From a virus, in IMG/VR virus record IMGVR_UViG_3300027127_000025, positions 1 through 23,353 of that record: 23,353 nucleotides of DNA; one strand, 5' to 3'. Positions 3,246 through 21,687 of the stretch are shown one piece after another. Every line of letters starts with the position of its first letter. Position 1 is the first letter of the stretch. The position numbers were made by a program, and so were the translations under genes. Under the pieces are notes generated by a model. It had not been told where the DNA came from, ran no database searches, and saw nothing but the letters and a program-made list of their open reading frames with translations.

Positions 3246-3469
3246 GGTAAGTTGCTTTCGATTATATTGCCCAAATCTTTTCTGTTTATTTTAAAAATCC
3301 ATCCAAATGAATTTGTCCAATATTCAATATCAGAATCGAAAAAATCTTTCTGTTTGTGAACTACAGAGAAAAATTGATCCTTGTATAAAATAACTTTTTG
3401 GCTCTTGACGCCAAAATTTGGATTATCGGCTATTAATTCAATATCGCAAAGAGTTTTATAGAAAATCAT
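3242..3469 (-). CDS. small hypothetical protein
   Basis: 75 aa, not recognised. It looks like a single small alpha/beta or all-beta domain with several aromatic residues (for example YWTNSFGWIFKINRKD). It overlaps its neighbours by 4 bases at both ends (ATGA), which is the main support for it being a real gene in the operon. Confidence 0.6.
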   Translation of the reverse strand: MIFYKTLCDIELIADNPNFGVKSQKVILYKDQFFSVVHKQKDFFDSDIEYWTNSFGWIFKINRKDLGNIIESNLP

Positions 3470-3741
3470 GGCGTCGCCCTCAATTCAACTGCACCTTTGC
3501 ACAAATAAGATTCACCAGTATAATTATAATTTAACCAGCCTCGAAATACAATTCTATCTTCAAGAAAGTCAAACTCTGATACTTCCATCAAAATTGGCTT
3601 TTGTATATCTTCGGACGAAATAACAACAAAATTTTGGGGAGGCTTGTGGCTATTTATATCACAGATATAGTTTTCTACTAAATCAATGCCGATCTTTTGC
3701 GCTGACAAATTAGGAATTACGAAACGTGTTAGGAATTTCAT
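3466..3741 (-). CDS. small hypothetical protein
   Basis: 91 aa, not recognised. It alternates hydrophobic and charged residues as in a small beta-rich domain, and has two cysteines (27 and 81). ATGA overlaps at both ends tie it to the BGT-like gene upstream and the 75-aa ORF downstream. Its position right after the glycosyltransferase may mean a functional link, but nothing in the protein itself shows this. Confidence 0.6.
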   Translation of the reverse strand: MKFLTRFVIPNLSAQKIGIDLVENYICDINSHKPPQNFVVISSEDIQKPILMEVSEFDFLEDRIVFRGWLNYNYTGESYLCKGAVELRATP

Positions 3742-4730
3742 TTGATGAATTCTTTTATTTGGTTTAAAGCTGTTAATTTTTCATCCATTGCTTGAGAGAA
3801 AAAAGTCTGCTGGTACATCAGATTGGTTTGAAAAGCGAGAGACTCTGCATAATTAACCACTCCGTTCTTGAGCTTTTTATCGTCGAGAATCAAAGATTCT
3901 GGAATAACGTATCCGCACTTTTTAATTGTATTTGAACAGTCGGCGTCAAACAACATAACAACATCGGACATTAGAGATTCATAGAATCGATTGGCAAGAA
4001 AAGCATAATTATTATGAGTATGCTCGTCTTCCATATAAATTGAATATTTATACTTTCGTAAGTCTTCGTTATTCTTTTGCCATTCAAGTTTTGGTATGTA
4101 ATTGCAGTTACAGCCAAGTCCTTGGAATTTTTTCCAGTTTTTATTTGAAGCAGACAGAAACACTCCTTCAGTCAGGAACTTCTTGAACGACTCTGCTCGC
4201 CATTTGCGGTAAGTTCCATAATAAATCACGCCGCTTTTATTTGACATATTAACCGGCGTTCTATCATCGTCCATTATCAATGAATTTAGATTAACAGTAA
4301 GCCAGTTATTAATAAAATCATTAAGTTTCTTATTTGCAATGTTCTTGTTCAAGATCCAATGGCGGTATCCTTGTCTGGGATTGTTGCAAATCATATCGTA
4401 GCTCAAACCCATGTTTTGAATGCCCCATCGCAAAAGCTGATTGTCTTCAACGTCATGGTCGTTGACCAGCCAGATGTACCGAGCCTTTGGGTTCTTTTCT
4501 AGAACTTGGCGGTAAGGAACGTGAGGCATATAAGGCGAAGCGTAGCAGCAGATGATGACATCATACTGCTTCTTTAGAACCTCTGGTAAAAAATATTCGC
4601 CATCAAGAAGGTCTGCGCCCAAAGCCTTCTTCAAAATAAGGCTATTGCGACAGTGAACAATTGATGTATCACTATAGTCTTCTGCAAGAGGTTTTCGCTT
4701 ACTGGTCGCTTCGATTATCAGAATGTTCAT
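3738..4730 (-). CDS. GT-B glycosyltransferase resembling T4 DNA beta-glucosyltransferase
   Basis: 330 aa. The N-terminal half looks like a Rossmann-type domain (MNILIIEAT; YDVIICCYAS at 56-65; ARYIWLVND at 83-91). The C-terminal half has GVIYYGTYRKWRAESFKKFL (167-186), followed about 60 residues later by NRFYESLMSDVVMLFDAD (247-264). From memory, the UDP-glucose site of T4 beta-glucosyltransferase has the same layout: a Gly-rich strand followed by Arg residues (GGSFRSGQRES) and then LRVWETMASDAVMLID. The R-x3-R/E and R-x2-E pairs are preserved here. This supports a GT-B sugar transferase of the BGT type that may use hydroxymethyl- or other modified pyrimidines in DNA, but the acceptor is inference. 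No hydroxymethylase is visible in the window. It has ATGA overlaps with both neighbours. Confidence 0.6.
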   Translation of the reverse strand: MNILIIEATSKRKPLAEDYSDTSIVHCRNSLILKKALGADLLDGEYFLPEVLKKQYDVIICCYASPYMPHVPYRQVLEKNPKARYIWLVNDHDVEDNQLLRWGIQNMGLSYDMICNNPRQGYRHWILNKNIANKKLNDFINNWLTVNLNSLIMDDDRTPVNMSNKSGVIYYGTYRKWRAESFKKFLTEGVFLSASNKNWKKFQGLGCNCNYIPKLEWQKNNEDLRKYKYSIYMEDEHTHNNYAFLANRFYESLMSDVVMLFDADCSNTIKKCGYVIPESLILDDKKLKNGVVNYAESLAFQTNLMYQQTFFSQAMDEKLTALNQIKEFIK

Positions 4731-5913: not shown

Positions 5914-7425
5914 ATGTCAAGGGCTTCTAATCAAAAAGTTAATGCGGAGCTTTTCTCGCTGGAACCAACAGCGTTGTTAGAGTTTTTTGTTATTTACTAT
6001 GATTATATTAATACTCCAGATGATAAATTATACATTCATGGCGGTACAAATGGCATAAACGGTTCGATTTATTGGCAGGGAATAGAATATTTACCTTTCC
6101 CTATTCAAAGTTCTGGTTTTGAAAGTAAAGGCGACGGTTCGTTGCCTAGACCCAAGCTGGCAGTCTCAAATCAAGATTTTTTCGTTTCTAATTTAATTCG
6201 ACGCTATAATAATTTAGTTGGTGCAAAAGTGGTAAGAAAAAGAACTTTTGCAAAGTTTTTAGATAATCAAAATTTTTCTGACAACAAAAACCCCTACGGT
6301 TCTGCTGACGCTACTGCTGGATTAGAAGATCAAGTATTTTATATTCTTAGAAGAGCAACTGAAAATCGTGCAGTTGTTGAGTTTGAATTATCTTCTCCTT
6401 TAGAAATTGAAGACGTAACATTCCCCAAGAGATCTGTAATTGCAAGATACTGCGGTTTTCACTATCGCGGCAATGGATGCAAATACATGGGGCCACCAGT
6501 TGCTGACGAGAATGACATGCGTTTAAGAAAAGCTGTTGATTTTAAAGCGGGGCTTTTAAGAAGATATTATACAGGAACAGCTGCGGGATATGCTAGTGAT
6601 CTTAGTACAATGACGACAAAAATTGCAAATTCTACATTTAGTTCTGAAACAGTTCTTTCAAATACAACAGTAGAAAATGCAGAAAATATTGCTCATGAAT
6701 TTATAGGATATTTTAAAGTAAATGCAAATGAAGCTGGTGTTTATGAATTTGGACTTGATCCTGACGATAGCGCGGACTTATTTATAGATGGAAACAGAAT
6801 TGCATACTTTTATGGTGGCAGGGGTCAAGCAGGTTCTCCGACAGGAACAACAACTTCTACTCTTTCGTTGTCCGCAGGGTATCATAGAATTTTGATCAGA
6901 CATCATGAGTACACTGGAGGACAAGGCGTAACTTTATACTATAAGCCGCCTCCAATAACTGGGAGTTCAACTTGGGAGGCTGTACCGGCATCAAGATTTT
7001 ACTATGATGTTTTAGAGCAAAATACTTTAACTTCTAGTCAAAGATTTTATTCAAATTCCCAGTTAAGTTCTTCCATTCCTCTCGGCAACAACGCTTTGTT
7101 GGATGGATTAAATAGAGGCTTGTGGAAAGCAAATGCTGGAGTTTATAAAGTTGGAGAGTTCGTTTATATCGAGAATCATAATGTTAAAGTTGCCAAAAGA
7201 GACATAAATGCAATTCCTAACTACACCCCTCTTTTAAGATTTTATGTTTGTGTCAAAACTCATACGGCAAGCGGCGTAAGAAATCCTTCTTTCAATAAAG
7301 AATACTGGGTTTGCGACCAATGCTCTAAAACCCTTAATGGATGTAAACTAAGATTTGGATCTGGTGATTATTTACCTTTCGGTGGATTTCCTGGTGTAGA
7401 GGAATATTCAGTTTCTTCACAATAA
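5914..7425 (+). CDS. tail-tip protein L-like with inserted PA14-like domain
   Basis: 503 aa; lambda gpL is about 232 aa. Residues 1-200 follow the L family: ALLEFF near the start, a Trp-Gln-Gly-x-x-Tyr strand, GDGSLPRPKLAVSN, and ARYCGFHYRGNGCKYMGPPVAD. In lambda L four cysteines bind an iron-sulphur cluster. The same spacing is seen here as Cys180-x8-Cys189 and Cys470-x6-Cys477, with an additional Cys467. Between the pairs lie about 280 extra residues. One part is a PA14-like domain (about 213-362; GVYEFGLDPDDSADLFIDG and LSLSAGYHRILIRHHEY). The other is an aromatic CBM5/12-like module (404-466; W-x5-VY-x-VGEFVY ... FYVCVKTH ... YW). The protein should form part of the tail-tip ring; the insertions probably face outwards. 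A strong SD (AAAGGA) precedes the ATG. Confidence 0.8.
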   Translation: MSRASNQKVNAELFSLEPTALLEFFVIYYDYINTPDDKLYIHGGTNGINGSIYWQGIEYLPFPIQSSGFESKGDGSLPRPKLAVSNQDFFVSNLIRRYNNLVGAKVVRKRTFAKFLDNQNFSDNKNPYGSADATAGLEDQVFYILRRATENRAVVEFELSSPLEIEDVTFPKRSVIARYCGFHYRGNGCKYMGPPVADENDMRLRKAVDFKAGLLRRYYTGTAAGYASDLSTMTTKIANSTFSSETVLSNTTVENAENIAHEFIGYFKVNANEAGVYEFGLDPDDSADLFIDGNRIAYFYGGRGQAGSPTGTTTSTLSLSAGYHRILIRHHEYTGGQGVTLYYKPPPITGSSTWEAVPASRFYYDVLEQNTLTSSQRFYSNSQLSSSIPLGNNALLDGLNRGLWKANAGVYKVGEFVYIENHNVKVAKRDINAIPNYTPLLRFYVCVKTHTASGVRNPSFNKEYWVCDQCSKTLNGCKLRFGSGDYLPFGGFPGVEEYSVSSQ

Positions 7426-7787
7426 TGCAATCAATAATTGAACATGCAAGTAATTCTGAATTAGAAGTTTGTGGATTTGTTTTTGTTGAAAACGGAGATT
7501 TAAAAACAGAACCTGCAAAAAATATAGCGGTTTATGCGAATGATGTATTTGAAATTCATCCGTTGGAAATTCTAAGGCACATCAGGAGTGGTAAACTCGC
7601 TGCAATTTATCATACCCACCCAACCTCAACAGAACAAGAATCAACATTTGATCAATTCAACTGCGAAAACTCTTGCATTCCTTACATTATTTATAGCAAA
7701 GAAACTAAAAAATTTAATTTGTTGCTACCTAAAAAATCACATGTAAAACAAGAATATGTTGAGATACTAAAGAAAAAATATGACTAA
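7425..7787 (+). CDS. tail-tip assembly protein K-like, JAMM (MPN+) peptidase domain only
   Basis: 120 aa. The complete JAMM zinc-peptidase signature is present: Glu14 (LEVCGF), then His63-x-His65-Pro-x6-Ser73-x2-Asp76. Lambda gpK pairs such a domain with a C-terminal NlpC/P60 domain; here that second domain is absent and the protein stops soon after the JAMM fold. In lambda the protein acts in tail-tip assembly and may cleave cell-wall or tail components. The gene starts within the L stop codon (TAATG) and overlaps the next gene by 8 bases, keeping the lambda order L-K-I. Confidence 0.8.
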   Translation: MQSIIEHASNSELEVCGFVFVENGDLKTEPAKNIAVYANDVFEIHPLEILRHIRSGKLAAIYHTHPTSTEQESTFDQFNCENSCIPYIIYSKETKKFNLLLPKKSHVKQEYVEILKKKYD

Positions 7788-10416
7788 TGTTTATCTATAC
7801 GGAGAATTGCGAAACAAATTTGGCGAAGAATTTAAATTCAATATAAATTCTGCTAAAGAGGCTTTGCTCGCAATCAATGCTAATAAAAAAGGGTTTTTAG
7901 ATGAAATAAAGAAGTTGGCAATGAAGGGGGTCCATTATAGAATGGTGATTGATGATGAGGTTGTTCAACACCCCAAGGAAGCGGAGATTCAAAAAGCTCC
8001 AAATGAAATTCATATAGTTCCTATTGTTTGGGGAGCAGGGAAAAATGGTATGGCAATAGGAATGATAGTGCTTGGAGCGGTATTGGTCGTAGCTACGGGA
8101 GGACTCGCGGCAATTGGAGGTCCAGCAGCAATGGGAGCTTTCGCGGCAGGAGGTTCTTTAGCTGGAGTTGCAAGTACAGTAGCAATGATTGGTGCATCCA
8201 TTGCCATTCAAGGAGTCATGTCTTTGCTAACCCCTAAACCAAAAGCGGATTTTAATCAAGAAGTGCAGGCTGGCGGTAAATCTTATTTATTTGGAAATAA
8301 ACCGGCAAACACATCTCAAGGTCAAGCAGTTCCAGTTGGGTATGGTAGATTAAAGATTGGAAGCTCTCAAATAAGTGCAAGCACAGATCACTATGCTTTA
8401 GCAACTGATATTAAGCAATTGATGACTCCTGTTGATAAACCAATCAATGAATATGTTGAGCTAGTAGCCGATGACGAAGCTGCACCAGCCGGTGCTGTAG
8501 AAGACATGTTCAGCACCAATCAAGCTGTTGACATGGATGACACTACTACATTTTATACCGTTAATGTTTTAAATTCTTATATTGATATTGTAACAAATAG
8601 TGCAGATAAAGTTTTTTCTAATCCTGTTGAAGTTGTAGTCAGAAAAAATGGTGATATAGTTTCTAATCCAGATTTAACAACTTATGATGATAATATAAGT
8701 TATGAGTGGGAAGAATTAAGCAATGATAGCTCAAAGGGCAAAGTAAAAATAGAAAATCCATATACAGTTAAATCAGGTCTTCTTGTCAGATCTTATCATA
8801 TTCCAGATTTTACAGTTCAGTCTATTTTCACTGGATTGAAAAGCAGTCAAACTGGATATTTTCAAAAATATTCTCAAGGTGATTTAGTAAAGTTTGGTCC
8901 GTCTCAATTTAATAATTTGAAATTTGCAACTTGGGACACTGGTTATAATTATTTCAGCGGAGAACTTGTAAATTATCCAACAGGCAGTCCTGCAACTGAT
9001 ACATATTTTCAAGCAATAGTTAGTACAGGATTTTCTGGTCAATTGCCAACTGGCGCTGGAAATACCATAAACTCAACATGGTGGAGAAAAATCTTACCGC
9101 CAAATCTTGAGTATTTGTATAAATGCGTACCTGCCAATGGTGTTTCTGGCCACTTACCGACAACAGGAGAAATTGCTGGTGGAGCGCCAGTTGCAGAATC
9201 AACATTTTGGACTAGAGTTGAAACTCCCACTACTACAGCAGAGATGGATACTTTATTCTCTGACTATCCAGCCTACGAAGATAAAAATCAATATACTTAT
9301 GTTGATGCAATAGACAATGTATACGAAGGCAAAATAAATGGAACTACAGCAAATATTGATAACTATGGGATGGAGTTTCTTGGTTATTTTTATGTGCCGA
9401 CAGTTGGCGGCGATGGCAAAAGTTTCATAAAAGATGTTTTTGAAGTTGGAACAGGCACTGGATTGTACGAAATTATTAAAATTGGAGATACGGGACAATG
9501 GAGTGGTTTAGGATTTACTGGACTAGGTGGAACAGCTATACCTCCAAGAATAGGCTCAACATTTTATAAAAACCAAACGCAAGGAACTGGAAATGGCAAA
9601 ATAATGCCAGTAGGCGCATATGAATTTAAACTTGATTCTGACGATGCTTCAGATTTATATATAGATTCTACTTTGGCTAGTGCATATTATAGCGGCCATG
9701 CAATGTTTTCTGGATTTGCAAATCCGCCTTGGATCAGTCAACCAAGCAGTGCTGAAATTTCTGGACTTCATTCTTCTACCACAACATTGTATTTAACTGC
9801 TGGCTATCATCGCTTACTAGCAAGGCTGCAAGATTTAAGAGGTAGCGAAGGAATTAGTTTGTATTATAGATATGACACTAACAGAGATGGAGTATTTTCA
9901 GATTGGCAACTCGTACCAAAAGAAAAATTATTTCATTCCGTTTCTGACCTGACGACACCAAAGACTCAAAAGTTTTCTGATATAGGCAAAAGGGCTTTAA
10001 TTGTAGGTGCCACTGTAGCTGGAGAAAGATATAAAATAAAAACTGTTGGAACTACAAATTGGACATCTATTGGATCGGCAATTGCTCAAGTTGGAGCGGT
10101 TTTTGAAAGAAATTCTACAGCTATTTCTGGCAGTTCTCTCCAACAAGTTGTAGAAGATTTTATAACTTATTCTGAACAAAAATCAGCTGAATCAAATAGA
10201 ATTGCTAGATTTATATCTGAAAGACCTTTGGTTAAAGGGCAAAGAACAACTGGATATTCATTTTATAAAGCTAGATATCGATGCAAGGTTACTGTAAATA
10301 ATAGAGATATCTATTATTCCGCTCCAGTTAAAGTGAATATTAATTTCTTATCAACGCCTACAAGATTTAGAGGAGTTTCGACTCCAGAATTAAGCCAAGC
10401 AGTTCAAACGGCATAA
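7780..10416 (+). CDS. tail-tip assembly protein I-like with very long modular extension
   Basis: 878 aa, against about 220 in lambda gpI. Residues 1-84 form the ubiquitin-like N-terminal domain (VYLYGELRNKFGEEF; EIHIVPIVWGAG). Residues 89-150 are a Gly/Ala-rich hydrophobic stretch, and 165-200 carry the family's C-terminal element (SYLFGNKPANTSQGQAVPVGYGRLKIGS). The rest is extra. It has a CBM5/12-like module (384-435) with a second half-copy (445-480), and a PA14-like domain (about 534-718) interrupted by a 'Y-x-I ... W' module at 562-612. A second 'Y-x-I ... W-x2-IG' module is at 747-790, followed by a final beta-rich segment. This protein probably contributes receptor-binding surface as well as assembly function; that is inference. 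It overlaps J-N by TAATG. Confidence 0.75.
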   Translation: MTNVYLYGELRNKFGEEFKFNINSAKEALLAINANKKGFLDEIKKLAMKGVHYRMVIDDEVVQHPKEAEIQKAPNEIHIVPIVWGAGKNGMAIGMIVLGAVLVVATGGLAAIGGPAAMGAFAAGGSLAGVASTVAMIGASIAIQGVMSLLTPKPKADFNQEVQAGGKSYLFGNKPANTSQGQAVPVGYGRLKIGSSQISASTDHYALATDIKQLMTPVDKPINEYVELVADDEAAPAGAVEDMFSTNQAVDMDDTTTFYTVNVLNSYIDIVTNSADKVFSNPVEVVVRKNGDIVSNPDLTTYDDNISYEWEELSNDSSKGKVKIENPYTVKSGLLVRSYHIPDFTVQSIFTGLKSSQTGYFQKYSQGDLVKFGPSQFNNLKFATWDTGYNYFSGELVNYPTGSPATDTYFQAIVSTGFSGQLPTGAGNTINSTWWRKILPPNLEYLYKCVPANGVSGHLPTTGEIAGGAPVAESTFWTRVETPTTTAEMDTLFSDYPAYEDKNQYTYVDAIDNVYEGKINGTTANIDNYGMEFLGYFYVPTVGGDGKSFIKDVFEVGTGTGLYEIIKIGDTGQWSGLGFTGLGGTAIPPRIGSTFYKNQTQGTGNGKIMPVGAYEFKLDSDDASDLYIDSTLASAYYSGHAMFSGFANPPWISQPSSAEISGLHSSTTTLYLTAGYHRLLARLQDLRGSEGISLYYRYDTNRDGVFSDWQLVPKEKLFHSVSDLTTPKTQKFSDIGKRALIVGATVAGERYKIKTVGTTNWTSIGSAIAQVGAVFERNSTAISGSSLQQVVEDFITYSEQKSAESNRIARFISERPLVKGQRTTGYSFYKARYRCKVTVNNRDIYYSAPVKVNINFLSTPTRFRGVSTPELSQAVQTA

Positions 10417-11309
10417 TGAAAATTTTAAATCCATACAGATTTTATAGAGGAAGCAGCAGTGGGAAACAAAATAATAAGGTTCCTTCTCTTACTCCTCCAA
10501 GACCTCAAGATTTAAAAAAATCCATATCAATTGCAGAAATTGTCGATTTACTTTGCGAAGGTCCGATTTATGGCTTGGTTGATCAATTTGGCAAAAAAGT
10601 TTATGGCTTAGACATGTTAAAGGGAGTCTATTTGAATAAAGTACCAGTTATGAATTATGATGGTAAATATAATTTCCGAAATGTTGTTATGGAAATTAAT
10701 TTGGGAACAGAGAATCAAAAGCCATTGGCTAATTTTAGTAATGTTTTCATTTATAAACCAGCTAGTTTTAGATTACTAGGGCCGGTAAATGTTCCAAGTG
10801 ATCAAAGTGTTGGTGGATCTAATGACGTAAGAGATGGGAAAAGTTTTACAAACTGGGCGCTTGGCTATCCAACAGATGTTAGAGATCCATTCACATTTGT
10901 TCATCATATAAAAAATAAAGACGTAAGAAAAATTAGAATCAGTTTAATTATTGAAGCTCTCAGCGATACAGTTGATAAAGGTTCTGCTCCTGGTGAATCT
11001 GGCGATCTGGGTATGCAAAAACCAACAACAGTTGTTATCGCTGTTACACACGGTATCGAAGGTACAAGAAAAGTCACAACAAAAGAATATCCTATTACTG
11101 GAACAGTAACTTCTCCTTACGCTTACATGTTAGGTGAACCAGTTTCGCAATCAACTAGAATAGGTTCTGGAGCAGTGACTTCAAGCGGAGGAGCGACCAC
11201 AACTACAAGCGCAACTCCAAGTTCTGGGGGTGCATCACCTAGACTACCTGGTTTAACCGCAGGTCAAATAGAAGCCGCTCAACCCTCGGTGCCTATAAAT
11301 CAACCATAA
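10416..11309 (+). CDS. central tail-tip (J-like) protein, N-terminal part as a separate ORF
   Basis: 297 aa. Residues 33-110 match the start of lambda gpJ: ISIAEIVDLLCEGPIYGLVDQ, then VYLNKVPVMNYDGKYNFRNV and EINLGTENQKP. Later, DVRKIRISLIIEALSDT and the segment ending GTVTSPYAY correspond to the early beta domain. The last 60 residues (Ser/Thr/Gly/Pro-rich, ending in PRLPGLTAG ... INQP) look like a disordered linker. In other phages the frame would continue into the main J body. Here it stops at TAA (11307-11309), and the next parts are in other frames. Confidence 0.75.
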   Translation: MKILNPYRFYRGSSSGKQNNKVPSLTPPRPQDLKKSISIAEIVDLLCEGPIYGLVDQFGKKVYGLDMLKGVYLNKVPVMNYDGKYNFRNVVMEINLGTENQKPLANFSNVFIYKPASFRLLGPVNVPSDQSVGGSNDVRDGKSFTNWALGYPTDVRDPFTFVHHIKNKDVRKIRISLIIEALSDTVDKGSAPGESGDLGMQKPTTVVIAVTHGIEGTRKVTTKEYPITGTVTSPYAYMLGEPVSQSTRIGSGAVTSSGGATTTTSATPSSGGASPRLPGLTAGQIEAAQPSVPINQP

Positions 11310-11324
11310 TTATAAATTTATAAT
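11309..11324. repeat. 16-bp perfect palindrome at the first J junction
   Basis: ATTATAAATTTATAAT is its own reverse complement. It begins at the last base of the J-N stop codon and runs into the first two bases of the next ATG. There is no SD in the 13-base spacer. It could be a protein-binding or recombination site, or simply AT-rich spacer that keeps the start open. Confidence 0.5.
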
Positions 11325-11889
11325 GCCATTAGAAAAAACATATCAAGAGCTTTTGGCCTCAAAGATAAACCCAAGAAACCCTTCTGCGGTTTTACCTGTT
11401 ATTTATAATTTAAGAAAAAAGTCTTTTGAGCCTTACGTTCCTACAGCAACAAATAGAATTATATTTTCTCCTGGTGTTGTGGGGGATGGAGCAACTGCGG
11501 TATTTGATGTTATTAGTCCTACAAGTTATACGAGAAGTCAAACTATTACTTTGTCTGGCACGGCAACTTATATATTAACAGATGGTACTACGTCTTATAC
11601 AAAAGCAGCTACTAGTATAGTAGCTCAAATAGATGTTGGAATAACAAATGAAAATAGAAATTTAATTGGATATCAGCAAAGAGTTTTAGCTTCTGAAATA
11701 GGAGACAATGGAGTATTTTCTTTTACAATTTCAAGTGAAATTATGGAGAAATTAAGTATCGGCACTCATTATGTTTATATTGATGCCGCTTCTCCTGATA
11801 ATGCGCCAGTTAGACTTTCTGCAAGCAGCACGCCTTCAAATCCAACTGATCCACTTTACTATACAAGAACCTTTACAATAACAGCATAA
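11323..11889 (+). CDS. tail-tip accessory protein between the two J parts
   Basis: 188 aa, no direct family recognised. After a short helical start (LEKTYQELLASK) it is rich in Thr, Ser and Val and looks like one or two immunoglobulin-like beta domains (TITLSGTATYILTDG; HYVYIDAASPDN; YTRTFTITA). It lies exactly where lambda J would run on from its N-terminal region to the 'LP-x-...-RYVIVEKRTAET' segment. It is therefore probably a structural decoration or connector of the tail tip. No SD is present; the start follows a 13-base AT-rich spacer. Confidence 0.65.
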   Translation: MPLEKTYQELLASKINPRNPSAVLPVIYNLRKKSFEPYVPTATNRIIFSPGVVGDGATAVFDVISPTSYTRSQTITLSGTATYILTDGTTSYTKAATSIVAQIDVGITNENRNLIGYQQRVLASEIGDNGVFSFTISSEIMEKLSIGTHYVYIDAASPDNAPVRLSASSTPSNPTDPLYYTRTFTITA

Positions 11890-11905: not shown

Positions 11906-14900
11906 ATGGAACCGAACTCTACAGATCCAGATGAAGGCACAAGCAGCAGTGTTGATACCAATGTGGTTTCTCAGGCAACTTTACGCAATTCAAATGAAAT
12001 TGAATTATTGCCTTCTGAAAATGGCAGAGACAGGTATGTTATAGTAGAAAAAAGAACTGCTGAAACAATTTCTCCTTTAGTAAAAAAAGAGGTCGTATTA
12101 GATGGTATTTACGAAGTAATAGATAGAAACTTTTCATATCCATATGTAGCTCACGTTGGTATGAAATTTGATTCAAGAACATTTGGTAACATGCCAAATA
12201 GAGAGTTTGATGTGAAAATGAAGAAGGTAAAAGTGCCTTCTAATTATTTTCCTATTGGTGGAGATGGTTTAGACAGAAGATATGTCTTTGCCAATCCAGA
12301 TTATCCAGCAAACCCAAATAGTCTTGACGTTATATTCATGGTTGATCAAAACATGAATGCTCAAACTAAAGCTTTGATAAGAAGAAATTTGCAAGAAATG
12401 ATCTTCAAATTAGTTGCTGGATATACTAATATAAGATTTTCTATATGGCAAACGGCTGCATCGGGAACTAATACGGTCGTAAATCAAGCAACCAATGAAA
12501 CTATAGTTGGATTTACATATTATAATACGGCCTCGTTTGCAGAAATGGAAACTCCAGATTCTGCTGGAGCAAATCAAACAAATTTATTTAAACAATTAGA
12601 CACTGCTCTAAGCACAGCCCAATTAAGTCCAGCAACAAATCCTTCCGAAACTAATATTGCCAATTTCTTTTTAAGAAAAAGTCAATTCAGTATAACTGAT
12701 GAAGTAGGCAAGCTGTCAGAAGAAACCGTTCTTCAAAATCTTTGGAAAAATACAGTAAGAAAAGTCGTTTATTTTTCTGGATCAACTCCAGAAACGATGA
12801 GTTCCGAAACTTATCAAATTCTCTTGAACAGGGCAAGAGAAGCTGGAATTCAATTGTATTATTTAAATACAGACCCTGATCGTTCTGGGACAAGAACTCT
12901 CAGAGAACTCGCAGAAGACACTGGTGGTGCAAAATTTAATTTACTTTACGATTCTGATTCAAAACTACAACAGTTTTGCAATACAAACTTTTACGACAGT
13001 AATAAAATTTATTACGGAGATTGGGACGGTACTTTTAAAATTGCTTGGACAGATAATCCCGCATGGATTTTGTATGATATAATTACAGACTTTAATTATG
13101 GTTTGGGCAATTATATTGATTCCTCTTCTGTTGATAAATGGACTTTGTATGATATTGGTAGATACTGTGACGCTGTAGATGATGATGGCAGATTTAGAGG
13201 CGTGCCTGATGGTAAAGGAGGTCTTGAGCCAAGATATACATGTAATATTATTTTCTATAATAAAGATGAAGCCTATAATGTATTAAAAGATATCGCAGCA
13301 ATATTTAAAGGAATTATCTATTGGAATACAGAAGGCTTTTCTTTCTTCGCTGACAAGAAAAAAGAGCCATTGGTTTATTTTGCAAATACTAACGTTAAAG
13401 ATGGTTTATTTAGCTATTCTGAAACCGCAAAGAATAAAAGATATACTAGTGTAGAGGTAACTTATAATGACAAATTTGATAATTATAAAACTAAAGTCGA
13501 ATTTGTCGAAGACGTTGACGGAATTTTAAATTATGGTTTGAATCCTTATAAAATAAATGCGGCTGGATGCACTTCACGATCAGAAGCTAGAAGAATAGGA
13601 AGATATGCATTAACAAGCTCTATATACGAGACAGATACAGTTACCTTCACTGCTGGATTAGAAGGCGCGTATTTACAACCTGGCGATGTATTTGGTATCA
13701 GCGATGAAATAAGAAACGTTGGCAGATCATTTGGTAGAATATTAGAAGTCAATGAAACAGCTAAAACAATTAAAATTGATGGTGAGTTCAACACTGGTTT
13801 AGACTCTGGAGTTTACATCCATGTGCCATCTGGTAATTTTTCTCTCTCCGATTTAAATTCTTTAACTGGAAGTGACGGTGGATTTACCGGAACTCTTGAA
13901 CAAATTAGAGCCAGAAGACAAAAACAAACTAGAAAGTTTAATATTCATACGGTCACAGACGACACATATGGGGCCACTTTAACTTTAACTGGAGATTTCT
14001 TATTAAAATCAGGTATATTTGATGTTTATGCGCTTGAAAATAGAACTACAGGAGCTTCTTCAACGTACACGGGTATAACAACATTAACTGGTGTAGTTTA
14101 TAACTTTCCTCCGCATACCGTTGTAAATGGAAATCCAAGGTGGGATACTTTGACTTTCTCTGGCATTTCTGGAGTGCTTTCTAATCTTGAAATAGATATT
14201 GATTTTTCTGGAGACGCTGGGACTGGATTATTAATATCTGCCTCAACCCCAAGTTGGGAAGGAATTATAACTGGTTTTAATAATATTAATTCAGACAGTG
14301 GAGATTTTGCTTGGACTGTCGCATCTGAAGGAAGATTAGAGTCTTATAACTCAGCTGTTATTTATAGATACAATAGTGGAGGCGCTTATGAGGCGTCTAA
14401 CTTATTAGGCAATATTAATAGCATATGGTCTAACCCTGTTTATACTAACGCAAGTACTGGAGATGTTGTTATTGCTGTGTGGCCAAGTGGAACACTAGAT
14501 TCTACAACTCCAAATGCAATATGGTCAACCGGATACGCAGCAACAGAAGTATTCAAATTGGGATTAGATACAAATACTAGCAAAGATAATTGCTTATATT
14601 GTGTCGCGCTAATTAAAGAAGGTTATCGTTTACTTGAAGCTGGTAGCAAAAGAGGTTTAGATTATCCTGGTATAAAATTTAATTATAGAGATTTGTTGGC
14701 TTATTCTAAGTTACGTCCATATTATACTTTTGTTCAAGCTGATTTCGGAAGCAGAGCAGAATCTATTTATGAAGATTGGAAATCTGGCAGAGATTATTCT
14801 GTTGGAAATATTGTAAAACATTATTCCGATACATATATCTGCACAAGATCTCATAAATCTTCTGAATATTTCAGCGAAGATTATTTAAATTCATTTACAA

Positions 14901-17900
14901 GGCAATGTGATATTGAAGCTGGAAATAAAAATATCGGATTAACAACTCAACATATCTCTGAGCTTGGTGGCGTTGCTGTTGGCATGTATGTAGCTGGTGC
15001 TGGAATTCCAGCAAATTCAAGAATAAATAGCATAACCGACGATCCAAGTAGCATTACTTTTCATATCGATAAAGATCCAACTGCTACGGCTAATAATGTA
15101 ACAGTAACTTTTTCAAGCAGATTAGTGGGAGGCAACAGCTCATCTGCATCAAAATGGACTAGAGGAAATGAGGAAGGATATTATTCAGTTGGCTTGCCAA
15201 AAGATTTTTATGGTACAGGTAAAATTCCTTTAACAACACCTTTAACATCTAGTCTCGTATCTGGCGCATTTACTGCCCTCGGATTAGAAGTTTACGTTGG
15301 CACTGGAACTTTAGGACAATCGGATTTAAGATTATTACCAGAGTCTAACGGAATTGGATATAGTGGTTTAGTTTACGGCACTGGATACCCCAAAGGCGTT
15401 TATAGTTTAACTGTAGACACAAATCCTCAAAATTTAGATTTAATAAACGAAGGTTCTCTGTATGTTTTAAGCGGATCTGGAGTTGAACCAAAACTTTATA
15501 AAACTATTGCGAATAAAGAAGAAGAGGCTAACCAGTACGCTATTGTTGGCATAGAGTATTTAAACAATAAAGATGATTATATTGAAAAAGATATTTTAGA
15601 TACCTCTCCAAGTTATTACGTTCAAGGGCCATACGATGTGGTTATAAAGCCTAATCCACCATCTGGAATACAAAGCATAAGTGGTATATCTGGAGCAACA
15701 AAATATACTGGTATTCAAGTGATATGGTCTGGAACAAACAGTCCAATTACCGGCTATAAAGTTTATGTTAGCAGGCCAGATTATTCAACAATAACAAATG
15801 AAACAGACGCGATTGTAGAAAGCTATACCATTCCTTCTGGAACGCATACATTAACCATTCCAATAACAGGTTCAGACGGTAATGATATTTGGGGCCAATA
15901 TGATTTTAAAATATATTCGCAAGGCACAACATACAAATTACTTTGCACAGATCCGGTAGAAACTGGAATTGTTATGCTGCCTTCTGGTAATTTAAAGATT
16001 AACGGAACTAACGCATTAACTTCTACAATTCCAAGTGGATTTACAATTGATACAGCAGATCAAGACTCTGTAAAATATTCGATTGGTTATGCTGGTGGCA
16101 CTTATACTGGAAATGGTAGAGGGAACTGGACTTCAAAAGATTTAGTTTTTAGATGGAAATACATTGATCCAACGGGCGGCAAAATGACAACTAAAGAGCA
16201 GATCTACGAAAATCCATTTGTTGATTTGCCTCAAAAAGTAACAGTACAGGTTTTAGATTCTGCTGGTCAAGTCTTAAAAGAAGAGAAGAATTATCAAGGG
16301 CTATCTTATAGAATAACACAAGCCGATAATGCTGCAATGTTTGATAGCTCGACTACTCCAGATTTTGTAGAGTACTCAAGAGAAATAGGATTAAGAGTTA
16401 TTGTTACTGACAACACTAATTTGTCTAAAACAGGCACCTTCCAAGCAGTAAATCAATACCCTGGTTATTCTAAAATACAAGTCATAGACTCTTATCAAAA
16501 CTCTCCATATTATATTCTATCTGGATATTATGGAAATAGAGGATTTACTGGATTGGCTGTTTGGAGTCCTGACGTAGCAAGTACAATTGGGGCTATAACA
16601 ACAATTTCTGGTTCTGGGGTAAGAGATGCTGACGGTAATTTAATTAGAAGCGAAAGCGAAGATGTTCCATTAACATTCAGAGATATCTCTGGGGCATTTT
16701 CAACCGCTACATTCTACAATGGCACTGGATTAGCGGTAGGTACTAGAGCGGCGGTTTCAATTAATTTTAAAGGAACAGGCGAGCCTGATTATGAAAAATA
16801 TGTTTATGCTTATGATGATTTAAAAGATCATTATGAAAAATATGTTGATAAATCAATTTCTGTATCACAATGGGGTGCGGATCACTATTCTTCCTTCGGT
16901 CAAAGTGAAGGAAGAGAAATTCCAACAAAGGAAGGAAATCCGCTAGGTATTTGTAACCTTCACGATATAAATCCAGCAACCCAGCCAAATAAAACAGGAT
17001 TTTCTGGCATTGCATTCACAGTATTACCAGAAGACGTTTCAAAGGGTAAGATAATATTTAATTGCTTTAACGCCACTTCAAATAAAGATGTTTTCAGTGT
17101 TGATGTATATACTGGAGTTGGCTATACTGATATTATAAATCATACCGAAATGGAAGAAGGTAATTGGTACGAAATCGTTACTTTAGGCAGCAGCGTGAAT
17201 TGGAGAACTATAGGTCATGATTCAAATACTCCAATATTAGGAAGCGAATTGGAATACAATGGAGAAACAATAGCTGGATCAAGTGCGACCGTAAAAAGAG
17301 TATTTAAACCTGATTTAGTTAATCATACTAATCTCTTTGGGGCGGTTTCTTTAACAGAAACAAGAAGTTATTTGAATGTGATTACTCTTGGAGAAAGATT
17401 GCCTACGGGACAATGGTTATACTTTAGATTCAGACCTTGGGACGACTATGGAGCAGGTTTTACTTCTAAAGTTGTAAGCGGATATTTAGAAAGAGAGCCA
17501 ACAGAAGTTACATCTCCAATTGCAAATAGATATAACTTAGACGGAGGTAGAAATGAAAACGAACTTATCAGTATTCCTGGTAATACTCTAGTTAAAAACT
17601 ATAAATACAGAATAGAGCAATTAGGCAATCCAGAAATAAACTGGGTCACAATTGGAGCAGATTCGGCTACTTTAAATTCTGAATTTATATATAACGGAGA
17701 AACTGTGTCTGGAGGTGGAACTACAATTGGTAAAGTTAAAAGAGTAGAAATTCCCTACGTTGTTCCAGAAAATCAAATAAATTCAACTAATCTTGTAACA
17801 CCAAGAACAGATTCTTCGCTTGTATTGCCCACCGATATACAAGAAGGAAGCTCAATCATTCTGGTTAATAGAAGTCTTGAACATAACTTATACGTTGAAG

Positions 17901-18010
17901 ACAGCAATGGAAATCAAATCTCTATAATCAGGCCCAATGAACGAGCCGAGATTATTAGAGATGATGTTGAATGGAGAGACGACAGAGGCTCCGTTCTATC
18001 GCTTGAGTAA
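11906..18010 (+). CDS. central tail-tip / host-specificity protein J-like, main body with VWA-like insertion
   Basis: 2034 aa. Residues 31-115 (IELLPSENGRDRYVIVEKRTAE; PYVAHVGMKFDS; VKVPSNYFPIG) and 367-600 (YYGDWDGTFKIAWTDNPAWILYD; GLEGAYLQPGDVFGI) are the conserved gpJ core. Between them, at 139-355, sits a Rossmann-like domain of von Willebrand A type: LDVIFMVDQNMN at 140-151, NQTNLFKQL, VRKVVYFSGS and GIQLYYLNTD. Its metal site is degenerate (D-x-N-x-N instead of D-x-S-x-S; no Asp in the third loop). Further along are a CBM5/12-like module from about 956 holding a 'GMYVAGAGIPA' module, an FN3-like domain (about 1251-1350), a 'HYSSFGQSEGR' module (about 1629-1674), two 'Y-x-I ... W-x2-IG' modules (about 1748-1800 and 1896-1951) and a beta-rich end. 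The variable C-terminal half should determine host recognition. It ends with TAA directly abutting the nrdB stop. Confidence 0.85.
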   Translation: MEPNSTDPDEGTSSSVDTNVVSQATLRNSNEIELLPSENGRDRYVIVEKRTAETISPLVKKEVVLDGIYEVIDRNFSYPYVAHVGMKFDSRTFGNMPNREFDVKMKKVKVPSNYFPIGGDGLDRRYVFANPDYPANPNSLDVIFMVDQNMNAQTKALIRRNLQEMIFKLVAGYTNIRFSIWQTAASGTNTVVNQATNETIVGFTYYNTASFAEMETPDSAGANQTNLFKQLDTALSTAQLSPATNPSETNIANFFLRKSQFSITDEVGKLSEETVLQNLWKNTVRKVVYFSGSTPETMSSETYQILLNRAREAGIQLYYLNTDPDRSGTRTLRELAEDTGGAKFNLLYDSDSKLQQFCNTNFYDSNKIYYGDWDGTFKIAWTDNPAWILYDIITDFNYGLGNYIDSSSVDKWTLYDIGRYCDAVDDDGRFRGVPDGKGGLEPRYTCNIIFYNKDEAYNVLKDIAAIFKGIIYWNTEGFSFFADKKKEPLVYFANTNVKDGLFSYSETAKNKRYTSVEVTYNDKFDNYKTKVEFVEDVDGILNYGLNPYKINAAGCTSRSEARRIGRYALTSSIYETDTVTFTAGLEGAYLQPGDVFGISDEIRNVGRSFGRILEVNETAKTIKIDGEFNTGLDSGVYIHVPSGNFSLSDLNSLTGSDGGFTGTLEQIRARRQKQTRKFNIHTVTDDTYGATLTLTGDFLLKSGIFDVYALENRTTGASSTYTGITTLTGVVYNFPPHTVVNGNPRWDTLTFSGISGVLSNLEIDIDFSGDAGTGLLISASTPSWEGIITGFNNINSDSGDFAWTVASEGRLESYNSAVIYRYNSGGAYEASNLLGNINSIWSNPVYTNASTGDVVIAVWPSGTLDSTTPNAIWSTGYAATEVFKLGLDTNTSKDNCLYCVALIKEGYRLLEAGSKRGLDYPGIKFNYRDLLAYSKLRPYYTFVQADFGSRAESIYEDWKSGRDYSVGNIVKHYSDTYICTRSHKSSEYFSEDYLNSFTRQCDIEAGNKNIGLTTQHISELGGVAVGMYVAGAGIPANSRINSITDDPSSITFHIDKDPTATANNVTVTFSSRLVGGNSSSASKWTRGNEEGYYSVGLPKDFYGTGKIPLTTPLTSSLVSGAFTALGLEVYVGTGTLGQSDLRLLPESNGIGYSGLVYGTGYPKGVYSLTVDTNPQNLDLINEGSLYVLSGSGVEPKLYKTIANKEEEANQYAIVGIEYLNNKDDYIEKDILDTSPSYYVQGPYDVVIKPNPPSGIQSISGISGATKYTGIQVIWSGTNSPITGYKVYVSRPDYSTITNETDAIVESYTIPSGTHTLTIPITGSDGNDIWGQYDFKIYSQGTTYKLLCTDPVETGIVMLPSGNLKINGTNALTSTIPSGFTIDTADQDSVKYSIGYAGGTYTGNGRGNWTSKDLVFRWKYIDPTGGKMTTKEQIYENPFVDLPQKVTVQVLDSAGQVLKEEKNYQGLSYRITQADNAAMFDSSTTPDFVEYSREIGLRVIVTDNTNLSKTGTFQAVNQYPGYSKIQVIDSYQNSPYYILSGYYGNRGFTGLAVWSPDVASTIGAITTISGSGVRDADGNLIRSESEDVPLTFRDISGAFSTATFYNGTGLAVGTRAAVSINFKGTGEPDYEKYVYAYDDLKDHYEKYVDKSISVSQWGADHYSSFGQSEGREIPTKEGNPLGICNLHDINPATQPNKTGFSGIAFTVLPEDVSKGKIIFNCFNATSNKDVFSVDVYTGVGYTDIINHTEMEEGNWYEIVTLGSSVNWRTIGHDSNTPILGSELEYNGETIAGSSATVKRVFKPDLVNHTNLFGAVSLTETRSYLNVITLGERLPTGQWLYFRFRPWDDYGAGFTSKVVSGYLEREPTEVTSPIANRYNLDGGRNENELISIPGNTLVKNYKYRIEQLGNPEINWVTIGADSATLNSEFIYNGETVSGGGTTIGKVKRVEIPYVVPENQINSTNLVTPRTDSSLVLPTDIQEGSSIILVNRSLEHNLYVEDSNGNQISIIRPNERAEIIRDDVEWRDDRGSVLSLE

Positions 18011-19066
18011 TTAGAATTTAATATCAAACACTGATTCGTCGATCTTGCTATCCACGCCTTTAACGTAAGAAGAAATCTCAGTCTCCTGTGGGGCGACTTG
18101 AATCTTCTTGCTATCATAGAAGCTATCTAACCATCCAGCAATAGGATTGCCCTTTGCGTTGTATAGCTTCTTGTATCCCATAGAAGTAAGACGATTATCA
18201 GCAAGCCACTCAACATAATGCTTGAGCGAATCAGCGGTGAGACCAATTAAACTACCCTTTGAGAAAAGGTAATCGGCCCAGTCTTTTTCTGCATCCACGG
18301 CCATACGATAAGCCTCGTAGATACGATCTTCATTCTTCTTAAAGATATCTTGGAAGCCTTCCTTTGGCTGATCACGGAGAATCTTCATGATGTTCTGAGT
18401 GATTGCAACGTGAAGGTTTTCGTCACGCGAAATTAAATTAATAATTTTAGCGTTTCCTTCCATCTTTCCGCGATATCCAAAGTAAAACGAGCAAGCGAAT
18501 GAAACATAAAAAGTTACCCCTTCGGTGATCTGAGTTGAAAGGAGTGCATCGAAGATTTGCTGCCTTGGGTCATTGCTCTTGGTATTAAGCAAAGCGTCGT
18601 ACTTATTGGAAATAAACTGCGCCCTCTTGACGATCTCCTTGTCATCTAAAATAGAGTCGAAGAACTTTGTAGCATCAGGATGGACGTTCTGCAAGATATA
18701 TGTATAACTATTGCTATGAATAGTTTCAAAGAATGACCAAACATTCATGCAGATCTCAAGTTCTGGATTACTGACGTAATCAGAAAGAGAGTTAATGCTA
18801 CGGGATAGCATTGAATCTGTCATAGTTTGGAAGCGAAGATTACTATCAAAAACAAACTTCTCTTCTGGAGATAGATTCTTATAATCAGCTGCATCCTTAG
18901 TAAGATTAACTTCCTGTGGTCTCCAGAAGAAATTAATCTGCTGATCGTAGAGATCATAGAACTTGGGATACTTTAAACGATCATATCTTTGGATCGCCAA
19001 ATCTTCGCCAAGGAAGAGCGGTTGTTTAAGTGAGTCCACGTTTACAGTGTTGAGTACAGTTTTCAT
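18011..19066 (-). CDS. nrdB: ribonucleoside-diphosphate reductase class Ia, beta subunit
   Basis: 351 aa, close in length and sequence to E. coli NrdB (376 aa). It houses the di-iron centre and tyrosyl radical that drive NDP reduction. Visible residues by alignment from memory are Trp48, iron ligands Asp61, Glu114, His117, Glu181, Glu215 and His218, and the radical Tyr121 in ETIHSNSYTYIL. FYVSFACSF and MEGNAKIINLISRDENLH are nearly identical to the cellular enzyme. The C-terminus ESVFDIKF is the acidic-aromatic peptide that docks on NrdA. With the radical Tyr and a full iron set, this is an ordinary class Ia subunit rather than a radical-less form. No SD is visible. It lies 4 bases after a small ORF that separates it from nrdA. 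Confidence 0.95.
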   Translation of the reverse strand: MKTVLNTVNVDSLKQPLFLGEDLAIQRYDRLKYPKFYDLYDQQINFFWRPQEVNLTKDAADYKNLSPEEKFVFDSNLRFQTMTDSMLSRSINSLSDYVSNPELEICMNVWSFFETIHSNSYTYILQNVHPDATKFFDSILDDKEIVKRAQFISNKYDALLNTKSNDPRQQIFDALLSTQITEGVTFYVSFACSFYFGYRGKMEGNAKIINLISRDENLHVAITQNIMKILRDQPKEGFQDIFKKNEDRIYEAYRMAVDAEKDWADYLFSKGSLIGLTADSLKHYVEWLADNRLTSMGYKKLYNAKGNPIAGWLDSFYDSKKIQVAPQETEISSYVKGVDSKIDESVFDIKF

Positions 19067-19070
19067 ATTA

Positions 19071-19334
19071 TTACATGTAGTTTCTACTGCGATCTTTTCG
19101 TCCTCCTGAGTGGTGAGGTCTATTAGTTCCTTGCCACATTTTCCATTCTTTAGTTGTAGGGGCTTTTAATTTCTTTTTTTGTTTTTCCGCCTCTAAAAGC
19201 CATACTGGTTTGTAAAGATCAAAAAGTTGATTAATATAGTTATCGTCAGCCGTTCTAGCTGATTCATAACCTTTATTGATAAGCCACTTTCGCTTTCGCG
19301 AAACACTGGCATTAGAGAGAAATTTATAGTCCAT
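19071..19334 (-). CDS. small basic protein between nrdA and nrdB
   Basis: 87 aa from the ATG at 19334 (a TTG at 19349 would add five residues but lies inside nrdA). Not recognised. It is strongly basic, with RKRKW near residue 15, a helix with KQKKKLK at 51-57 and a C-terminal GGRKDRSRN tail, as expected for a nucleic-acid-binding or RNA/ribosome-associated peptide. The ATG is 2 bases past the nrdA TAA, and nrdB begins 4 bases after it, so the three genes should be co-transcribed and coupled. No HNH or GIY-YIG motif is visible, so it is not an evident homing endonuclease. Confidence 0.6.
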   Translation of the reverse strand: MDYKFLSNASVSRKRKWLINKGYESARTADDNYINQLFDLYKPVWLLEAEKQKKKLKAPTTKEWKMWQGTNRPHHSGGRKDRSRNYM

Positions 19335-19336
19335 TT

Positions 19337-21637
19337 TTATAAGGTGCAAGCTCCACCAGCGCAGCCTTGGGTGTCGTCTTGCGGTTCTTCGGTTTTTGTT
19401 TCTTGTTTAATTTCTTGTTTTGTATGTAAAGCGGTTTGAGTGTCGCCGTCAAACGTATTTGTGTAGTAAAGATTTTTAATTCCGTACTTATAAGCCAGCA
19501 TTAAGTCTCCAACAAGTTCTCCTTGGCTTGGAATTTTATTTTGATAACGAGTGGCGTTATAATAAAGATTAGTTGAAATACTCATGTCAACAAATTTTTG
19601 AAGAGCAGCGACTACCTTCAAATACCCCTGATTATTGGGCATTTCAAACGCGAGGGTATAATTATCCTTGTTATTTTTGATATGGGGGACCACAACTGGG
19701 ATAACTCCAGCCTTTGAACGCTTATAAGAAATCAAAGAACGAGGAGGTTCAATCCCGTTAGTCGATGATTGAATAACAGAGCTAGACTCAACAGGCATCA
19801 AGGCAGTCAAGGTACTGTGACGCATACCGTGAGTTTTAATTTGCTTTCTAAGCTCTTCCCAATCACAGTGCAGTTTCTCAGTGACAAATTCATCAATATT
19901 CTTGCAATAAGTATCGATTGGCAGAATAGCTTTTGAGAACTTTGTTTCAGAAAACAAGGCGCATGGACCCTTTTCTTGAGCCATCTTAACTGAAGCCTTG
20001 ATGAGATTATAACTCACAAGCTCCATGATAGCGGCGGCTTTGTTGGCGGCATTCTTGTCGGTATACTTGACGCCAATATTAGCAAGATAGCCAGCAAGAT
20101 TAGTGACGCCAACCCCAAGACTGCGGCGATTCTTTGCAAAATTTGCAGCAGCAGGAACGAAATAGTTTTGATGATCAATCAAAGCGTCAAGCATACGAAC
20201 AATAATTTCGCATACAGGCTCCATCTCGTCCTTTACAACCTCAAGAAGATTAACGGCAGATAAGATGCAAACGCCGATTTCTCCATTGGGATCATTCAAG
20301 TCCTTGATAGGCTTGAGCGGATGATTGACCTCAAGGCAAAGATTGCTGGTATCAACTTGGGCATTCCAAGAACCATGCGAGTTTGCATGATCAACGTTCA
20401 TCAAATAAATGCGACCAGTTTCTACACGCTCTTTAGAGAACAAAAAGAAAAGATCACGCGCATTAATTGTCTTTTTAAATTTAAGGCTCTTGTTCTTTTC
20501 TGCCGCTTCATAAAGCTCCTTGAATTCTGGCATACCAAAGCTATTCCAAAGCTCTGGGACTTCGTGATAAGAAAATAAAGTAATGCTTTCATTCTTGACC
20601 AGACGATCATAGAATGTACGATCAAATCCGATGCAATAGTCGAGTTTGCGAACTCGGTTGTCGTCTGTGCCAGCATTATTTTTTAATACAAGAATATCCT
20701 CAATATCATGATGGAACCAAGCCATGTTTACTGTTGCAGATCCACCGCGAATACCATTTTGATGACAAGACTTAACGGTAGATTCAAACATCTTTAAAAA
20801 GGGAACAGGTCCAGTATGGCTAACCATGCCGCCCTTAACAGGTGCATTAACTGCACGGAGACGACTTGCGTTAATACCGATACCGTAACGATTTGCGGTA
20901 GCAAATCCAATGGCGCTATTATTCGCAAAGATAGAGTCAAGAGAATCGTCTACACTAAACAAAGCGCAAGACGCATAAGATTTGAGGGTAGTTCTCACTC
21001 CAGCCATAATAGGAGTGGGCAAATTAATTTTGTGCTGGCTAAAATAATTATAAGCCTTCTTGATATAGTTGGTCCGCTCTCCCTTATAGTCCTTAAATAA
21101 GGTCATTGCAATGAGCATATAAGCAAATTGCGGGGTTTCATAAAGCTTCTTATTAGTTCTATTCTGAACTAGATACTTTTCGCAAAGCTGCTTAATACCA
21201 GCGTATGTGAAATTAAAATCACGATCATGACGAAGGCATTCATCAAACTTATGGAATTCACGATCATCATACCATTCAAGAATGGCGGGATCATAAACTT
21301 TATTTTTAATATTATCTTTTACGAAATCAATAAGTTTTGGGGCATTCTTGCCTCCCCAAACTTCTTTACGCAACTGGTAATTTAAAAGACGAGAAGCAAC
21401 ATACTGATACTGAGGCTTTTCTTCGGAAATGAGTCCAGCCGCAGCTTCAATTAATGTGTTGTGGATATCTTTAGAGGATATTCCATCAAAGAAAGAAAGG
21501 TTCGCATTCATCGCGACTTCCTCAAAAGAGGTATCGTGAATTCCAGTGCAAGCCCATTCTAAAACTTTGTTAATTTTATCGGCGTCGAACTTTTCAATTT
21601 CTCCGCTTCTCTTCTTAACAGTCATTAATTTTTTCAT
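19337..21637 (-). CDS. nrdA: ribonucleoside-diphosphate reductase class Ia, alpha subunit
   Basis: 766 aa from the ATG at 21637. It reduces ribonucleoside diphosphates with NrdB. Residues 5-90 are a single ATP-cone (MTVKKRSGEIEKFDADKI; LISEEKPQYQYVA). Active-site residues by comparison with E. coli NrdA are Cys224 (SYASCALF), Asn432/Cys434/Glu436 (NLCLE), Cys457 (GVCILSAVNL), radical-transfer Tyr724-Tyr725 and the C-terminal swinging cysteines 759 and 764 (GCAGGACTL). The linker before the tail is longer and more charged than in E. coli. The frame could extend 12 codons to a TTG at 21673, but family alignment and a promoter that would start transcription near 21653 favour the ATG. Neither start has an SD. 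Confidence 0.95.
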   Translation of the reverse strand: MKKLMTVKKRSGEIEKFDADKINKVLEWACTGIHDTSFEEVAMNANLSFFDGISSKDIHNTLIEAAAGLISEEKPQYQYVASRLLNYQLRKEVWGGKNAPKLIDFVKDNIKNKVYDPAILEWYDDREFHKFDECLRHDRDFNFTYAGIKQLCEKYLVQNRTNKKLYETPQFAYMLIAMTLFKDYKGERTNYIKKAYNYFSQHKINLPTPIMAGVRTTLKSYASCALFSVDDSLDSIFANNSAIGFATANRYGIGINASRLRAVNAPVKGGMVSHTGPVPFLKMFESTVKSCHQNGIRGGSATVNMAWFHHDIEDILVLKNNAGTDDNRVRKLDYCIGFDRTFYDRLVKNESITLFSYHEVPELWNSFGMPEFKELYEAAEKNKSLKFKKTINARDLFFLFSKERVETGRIYLMNVDHANSHGSWNAQVDTSNLCLEVNHPLKPIKDLNDPNGEIGVCILSAVNLLEVVKDEMEPVCEIIVRMLDALIDHQNYFVPAAANFAKNRRSLGVGVTNLAGYLANIGVKYTDKNAANKAAAIMELVSYNLIKASVKMAQEKGPCALFSETKFSKAILPIDTYCKNIDEFVTEKLHCDWEELRKQIKTHGMRHSTLTALMPVESSSVIQSSTNGIEPPRSLISYKRSKAGVIPVVVPHIKNNKDNYTLAFEMPNNQGYLKVVAALQKFVDMSISTNLYYNATRYQNKIPSQGELVGDLMLAYKYGIKNLYYTNTFDGDTQTALHTKQEIKQETKTEEPQDDTQGCAGGACTL

Positions 21638-21659
21638 AAAAAGTAAAATAGGGTAAAAG

Positions 21660-21687
21660 ATATTACATATCAAACAGGAACTGCCAA
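21660..21687 (-). promoter_or_regulatory. candidate promoter for the nrd genes
   Basis: On the minus strand, TTGGCA (21687-21682, one mismatch to the -35 consensus) is followed by a 16-base spacer and TAATAT (21665-21660). This would place the transcription start near 21653 and give a leader of about 16 bases before the nrdA ATG at 21637. Its -35 overlaps the hairpin at 21684-21701. The match is moderate and untested. Confidence 0.35.

Follow-up and report, generated by a model that had tools for sequence, protein, structure and literature searches.

The closest described counterpart of the locus analysed here is the gpJ hub of phage lambda (8iyk, 8xcg; PMC10721106, PMC11101478), with which it shares an FNIII-A region, HDII-ins1, an HDII/HDIII/HDIV core, the upstream L, K and I genes and about 37% identity over the core. 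Lambda gpJ is a single polypeptide in which about 10 residues occupy the point of interest, whereas the present locus encodes two chains, a further protein (orf188) and, at that point, a predicted von Willebrand A (VWA) domain. In lambda, the hub lumen tapers from 3 nm to 2 nm and is occupied by gpI and the tape measure (PMC11101478, PMC10721106). An accessory domain in the tip-facing part of a J-type hub has also been described in Salmonella phage Jersey, whose hub protein gp32 carries HDII-ins3, a proposed antireceptor (PMC13243795); that domain, however, is Ig-like and sits in an N-terminal extension, while the one described here is of the VWA type and sits at the VPSNY/WDGTF loop. A VWA domain within the baseplate/fibre gene region of a virion is known from gp164 of Bacillus phage 0305phi8-36 (PMC2147016), a phage of a different type, where it belongs to a separate gene and not to the core of a J hub.

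In fold, the domain also resembles vWF A1 and TFIIH p34, to which it has no detectable sequence relationship and from which it differs in being viral and inserted in a tail protein. Both of these act in protein-protein docking without a full MIDAS, the metal site whose canonical form is DxSxS, T, D. VWA domains in general are common adhesion modules.

A split J in a lambda-like tail gene order

The window, meaning the whole stretch of 23,353 bases that was analysed, is an entire virus record and represents a fragment; its features are listed in Table 1. According to alignment with lambda J, JC comprises the last strands of the FNIII-A region, HDII-ins1, the VWA insert, the HDII/HDIII/HDIV core and a long C-terminal part. 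It is identified as J by PHROG J models matching from residue 361 on (phrog_31, E=1.6e-114; also phrog_2589 and phrog_1727), by Pfam Phage-tail_3 (PF13550) on residues 454-607 (E=3.3e-23) and by J structures in the PDB, with E down to 1.8e-65, and it contains the HDII-HDIV core, from WDGTF to Phage-tail_3, that marks a lambda-type hub.

Table 1. Features of the window, with positions in bases.
Feature	Position	Strand or direction	Details
gpL-like	5914-7422	rightward	503 aa
Small minor tail protein	7425-7784	rightward	
gpI-like	7780-10413	rightward	878 aa
JN, N-terminal part of J	10416-11306	+	phrog_1727, phrog_31; lambda J alignment
orf188, conserved small protein between JN and JC	11323-11886	+	188 aa
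JC, second part of split J	11906-18007 (ORF to 18010)	+	2034 aa
Insert in J	12251-13003	+	JC residues 116-366; alignment with 13 insert-free J proteins and a solved J structure
Predicted VWA fold proper	12320-12988	+	strand 1 (JC residue 139) to last helix (JC residue 361), AlphaFold2
First MIDAS-position loop, DQNMN	12344-12358	+	insert residues 32-36
Loop PDSAGANQTN with MIDAS Thr position	12554-12583	+	insert residues 102-111
Loop SGSTPE, fifth MIDAS position	12776-12793	+	insert residues 176-181
Second insertion in hub core, DDDGRFRG	13178-13201		8 residues
CBM_5_12 match, sub-threshold	14777-14860		JC residues 958-985
Ribonucleotide reductase small and large subunit genes	18011-21673	leftward	

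JN is matched by phrog_1727 (E=3e-16) and phrog_31 (E=1e-14) at residues 14-110 and, weakly, by the FNIII-A family PF24801 at residues 155-235. On the published domain map of lambda J (PMC10721106), the end of JN falls inside the FNIII-A region and the start of JC inside its equivalent, and HDII-ins1 and the N-terminal FNIII-A region, the latter with its weak Pfam match, are thus present but divided between JN and JC. Instead of the single polypeptide of a lambda-type hub, the complete loci examined have two ORFs, divided within the FNIII-A region and parted by orf188, which has no match in INPHARED and whose fold might be guessed from its sequence to be a beta-sandwich. Furthermore, JC starts with MK[IM]LNPxRFx[KR]G, as JN does, in the lineages L020/L021, L093-L096/L292/L300, L347/L348/L351/L358 and L352-L357. 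The simplest reading of this shared start is that J, or its 5' end, was duplicated and complementary parts were then lost, an origin of the split that the motif suggests.

Several other features of the neighbourhood were recorded. The gpL-like protein has about 300 residues outside the part matching phrog_18; only about 203 aa of the gpI-like protein match gpI, its other 675 residues being an extension in which PA14 is weakly matched at 607-676. In C-terminal J, there is a weak match to CBM_5_12, a carbohydrate-binding module. Among clues to the host, none of which assigned one, the gpI core weakly resembles Cylindrospermopsis, Vibrio and Proteus phages, the large subunit of ribonucleotide reductase is nearest to Synechococcus phages (about 52% identity), and DnaE of a related contig has distant matches to many phages.

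The insertion in the J core and its predicted fold

In JC, the motif KVKVPSNYFP occupies residues 107-116 and WDGTF stands at residue 373, with the insert between VPSNY and WDGTF; in lambda J, only QTRQYSGI separates VPSNYNP from WDGTF (residue 260). The alignment of JC with 9l9p_S, a solved J-type chain, runs to JC residue 116 (chain residue 260) and resumes at 367 (chain residue 263), so the roughly 250 residues between form a clean insert. When 13 insert-free J proteins from IMG/VR are aligned with it, both flanks match and one long gap lies between them. Two controls extend this comparison: the VPSNY-WDGTF spacing is lambda-like in 70 of the 75 readable IMG/VR J proteins from outside the group, and an insert-free J query against INPHARED matched 1533 records. 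Of these, 1500 have at least 80% coverage in one place, and the 60 rows listed evenly along the ranking are all single pieces. The insertion of about 250 residues in the J core, as originally predicted between KVKVPSNY and WDGTF, is therefore confirmed by these alignments and controls. Its linkers are conserved, the N-terminal one reading GGxGLDRRYV..NPxYxxxP and the C-terminal one NFYDSN. The second insertion in the hub core, DDDGRFRG, likewise occurs throughout the group and is missing in the other aligned J proteins.

An AlphaFold2 model of the insert, built with the sequences of 23 relatives, has VWA topology (pLDDT 75.9, pTM 0.80) and is weak mainly in its first 20 residues and in the short stretches 106-108, 148-155 and 159-166. 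Its predicted elements follow the order strand 24-31, helix 37-55, strand 60-68, hairpin 74-90, helix 110-121 and helix 133-149 in the first half, and strand 168-175, helix 185-198, strand 200-206, helix 217-223, strand 227-230 and helix 236-246 in the second. Foldseek returned 289 PDB matches at E<=1e-3, and the best among the matches listed are VWA folds, including TFIIH p34/Tfb4 (4wfq), vWF A1 (1u0o), an integrin I domain (1aox) and Rpn10 (8j4a), together with the VWA-type folds of inter-alpha-inhibitor, Ku, Sec24, integrin beta-I and the CD11b I domain; viral VWFA proteins are among the matches listed from BFVD. TM-scores are moderate, at 0.4-0.6. By sequence family, most members have no match to Pfam PF00092 or PF13768, the best PF00092 match, at E=5e-4, stays below the curated cut-off, and one relative (L013) scores 19.6 bits against a cut-off of 23.8. 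When the insert sequence was searched directly against Pfam and the PDB, only chance matches appeared, to Condensin2nSMC, lanmodulin and HA2.

These sub-threshold Pfam matches and the moderate TM-scores would be compatible with another Rossmann-like alpha/beta domain. Such a fold is nevertheless very improbable, given that the listed matches in two structure libraries are VWA folds of unrelated proteins and that both the T/N loop and the Asp closing strand 1 occupy usual VWA positions. A von Willebrand A fold in the J core is thus very probably real and conserved, judging from the model. The original prediction, which had read the order of strands and helices by eye, was borne out in this respect by AlphaFold2 and Foldseek, and the VWA domain it placed inside J agrees with the alignments to insert-free J proteins; its start, 12320, coincides exactly with predicted strand 1, but the fold runs past the proposed end at 12970, to about 12988.

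The metal site was also correctly described as degenerate. Across 60 distinct full-length insert sequences, Asp32 is the only invariant one of the five canonical MIDAS positions: position 34 is N (K once), position 36, the third site position in the first loop, is N, D, G, S or T, the Thr position T110 is T in 56/60 and Q in 4/60, and the canonical Asp of the fifth position is replaced by S (56/60) or G (4/60). Since the Ser positions and the last Asp are replaced, a normal MIDAS has not been kept, and the DxSxS...T...D pattern of MIDAS-containing VWA adhesins is absent from these 60 sequences. P102, D103, G106, N111 and P180 are likewise invariant in 60/60. Among 55 sequences, the MIDAS-side loops have an entropy of 0.69 bits versus 1.33 for the other loops (permutation p about 1e-4), making the former-MIDAS face the best conserved loop set of the insert; it may represent a reused ligand face that needs no metal.

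Distribution, selection and co-variation

A search for J proteins with the same insertion point, as had been proposed, found relatives of the insert in over 110 IMG/VR contigs, all from one uncultured phage group, with no tblastn match in INPHARED isolates and nothing in GTDB genomes by pattern scan. The 60 distinct full-length sequences have pairwise identities down to 42%, and six loci identical to the window across the insert do not count as independent. In the last scans, 112 loci had JN and sufficient sequence downstream of it, and all 112 carry the VWA; the insert is fixed in J of one uncultured siphovirus-like phage group, known from environmental sequence alone, throughout which split J and orf188 accompany it. 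All of these loci belong to one group, and their combination of split, orf188 and VWA therefore counts as a single evolutionary case and not as repeated evidence. A VWA domain within the J core was absent from INPHARED, from the IMG/VR J samples and from the literature searched, a survey that does not span all J proteins. The original remark that this is no ordinary phage tail feature stands for J in every collection searched, but gp164 of 0305phi8-36 has a reported VWA domain and a hub with an accessory domain is known from Jersey.

An assembly or frame artefact, an intein or a similar parasite is scarcely credible as the source of the insert. One contig, L041, has an interrupted VWA coding stretch at 2997-3750 (ORF of 169 aa), which may reflect misassembly or a broken copy, and nothing else of this kind was found, whereas dozens of independent contigs, at 42-100% identity, keep the frame open, no family of inteins or nucleases matches, and dN/dS is 0.064. 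On the basis of conservation, open frames and this ratio, an intein, a mobile element and an artefact were all rejected.

With that dN/dS, the VWA is under strong purifying selection; the corresponding values are 0.029 for the hub core, 0.115 for JN and 0.137 for orf188. Mean identity to the window is 67% for the VWA, 80% for JCb, 64% for JCa, 55% for JN, 49% for orf188 and 51% for C-terminal J, so that the VWA is more conserved than JN, orf188 and C-terminal J, and the most variable parts are orf188 and C-terminal J. Neither the ratios nor the identities support a hypervariable receptor-binding domain. In mirror-tree comparisons, where shared recombination blocks or similar evolutionary rates also give correlation and where JCa is short, the distances of the VWA correlate with those of JN (0.82), orf188 (0.82), JCb (0.74), JCa (0.58) and the gpI core (0.55), following JN and orf188 more closely than the VWA's own flanks, with partial correlations of 0.52 for JN and 0.45 for orf188. 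Pairs expected from lambda to be in contact behave likewise (gpI-JCb, 0.59; JN-JCa, 0.44). Owing to these confounders and to the short JCa, JN and orf188 are suggested as docking partners at most.

Docking and its alternatives

Given close to an even chance is the reading in which the VWA acts as a metal-independent docking domain outside the tip, joining the J halves and orf188. Three VWA copies would sit around the outside of the tip cone, in an orientation taken from lambda, where the lumen leaves no room for three such domains inside. The former-MIDAS face would bind JN and/or orf188 without metal, and the VWA would clamp both J parts and orf188 together, during assembly or tail opening. 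Purifying selection, co-variation with JN and orf188 and the size of the lumen favour such an outer docking domain. A hub model of the whole JC (40 sequences, without JN or trimer) was of low confidence (pLDDT 51.8, pTM 0.39) and was set aside.

The main rival, doubtful though with an appreciable chance of being right, is adhesion to a conserved host component: the VWA would be a putative adhesin for the host surface, placed on the flank of the J cone and mediating reversible attachment before the C-terminal fibre engages. The conserved former-MIDAS face could equally contact a conserved host receptor, the tail tip comes close to the cell wall, and VWA domains are generally common as adhesion modules. 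Comparable placements are the Ig-like J insertion of Jersey, proposed as an antireceptor (PMC13243795), and the VWA domain in the baseplate/fibre gene of 0305phi8-36 (PMC2147016). The loss of the metal site, purifying selection with slower change than in JN, orf188 and the C-terminal J region, and co-variation with tail-tip partners all argue against it; variation would be expected to peak in a host-range module, and here it does so in orf188 and C-terminal J. Selection, conservation and the tracking of JN and orf188 agree better with docking inside the virion than with an adhesin driven by host range, and the original label of an adhesion-type domain finds no support in them.

It is improbable, on the other hand, that the VWA serves as a spacer or collar of purely structural function, with no specific ligand, and is retained since the hub now depends on its packing. 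The lost canonical MIDAS, the conserved linkers at both ends, suggesting rigid attachment, and strong purifying selection would all suit such a role, but the conservation is concentrated on the MIDAS-side loops instead of being even over the loops. Returning to docking, a fuller version holds that J was duplicated, that complementary parts were lost, and that the hub now consists of three proteins (JN, orf188 and JC) held by a metal-independent VWA clamp; this is possible, if rather unlikely.

The locus thus represents a real, conserved and unusual variant of the lambda-type hub, whose mechanism, between docking and adhesion, we infer. The lambda-type hub core is among the more constant parts of siphovirus tails, and in the samples searched the VPSNY/WDGTF loop hardly varies in length. 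By accommodating a 250-residue VWA domain at this loop, alongside a split J and orf188, the group offers a natural test of the hub connections that tail assembly and DNA release cannot do without. It also exemplifies the recruitment of a predicted VWA domain, its metal site lost, to the hub of a virion. If the three-protein hub proves true, the VWA would make up for the covalent continuity lost in the split J.
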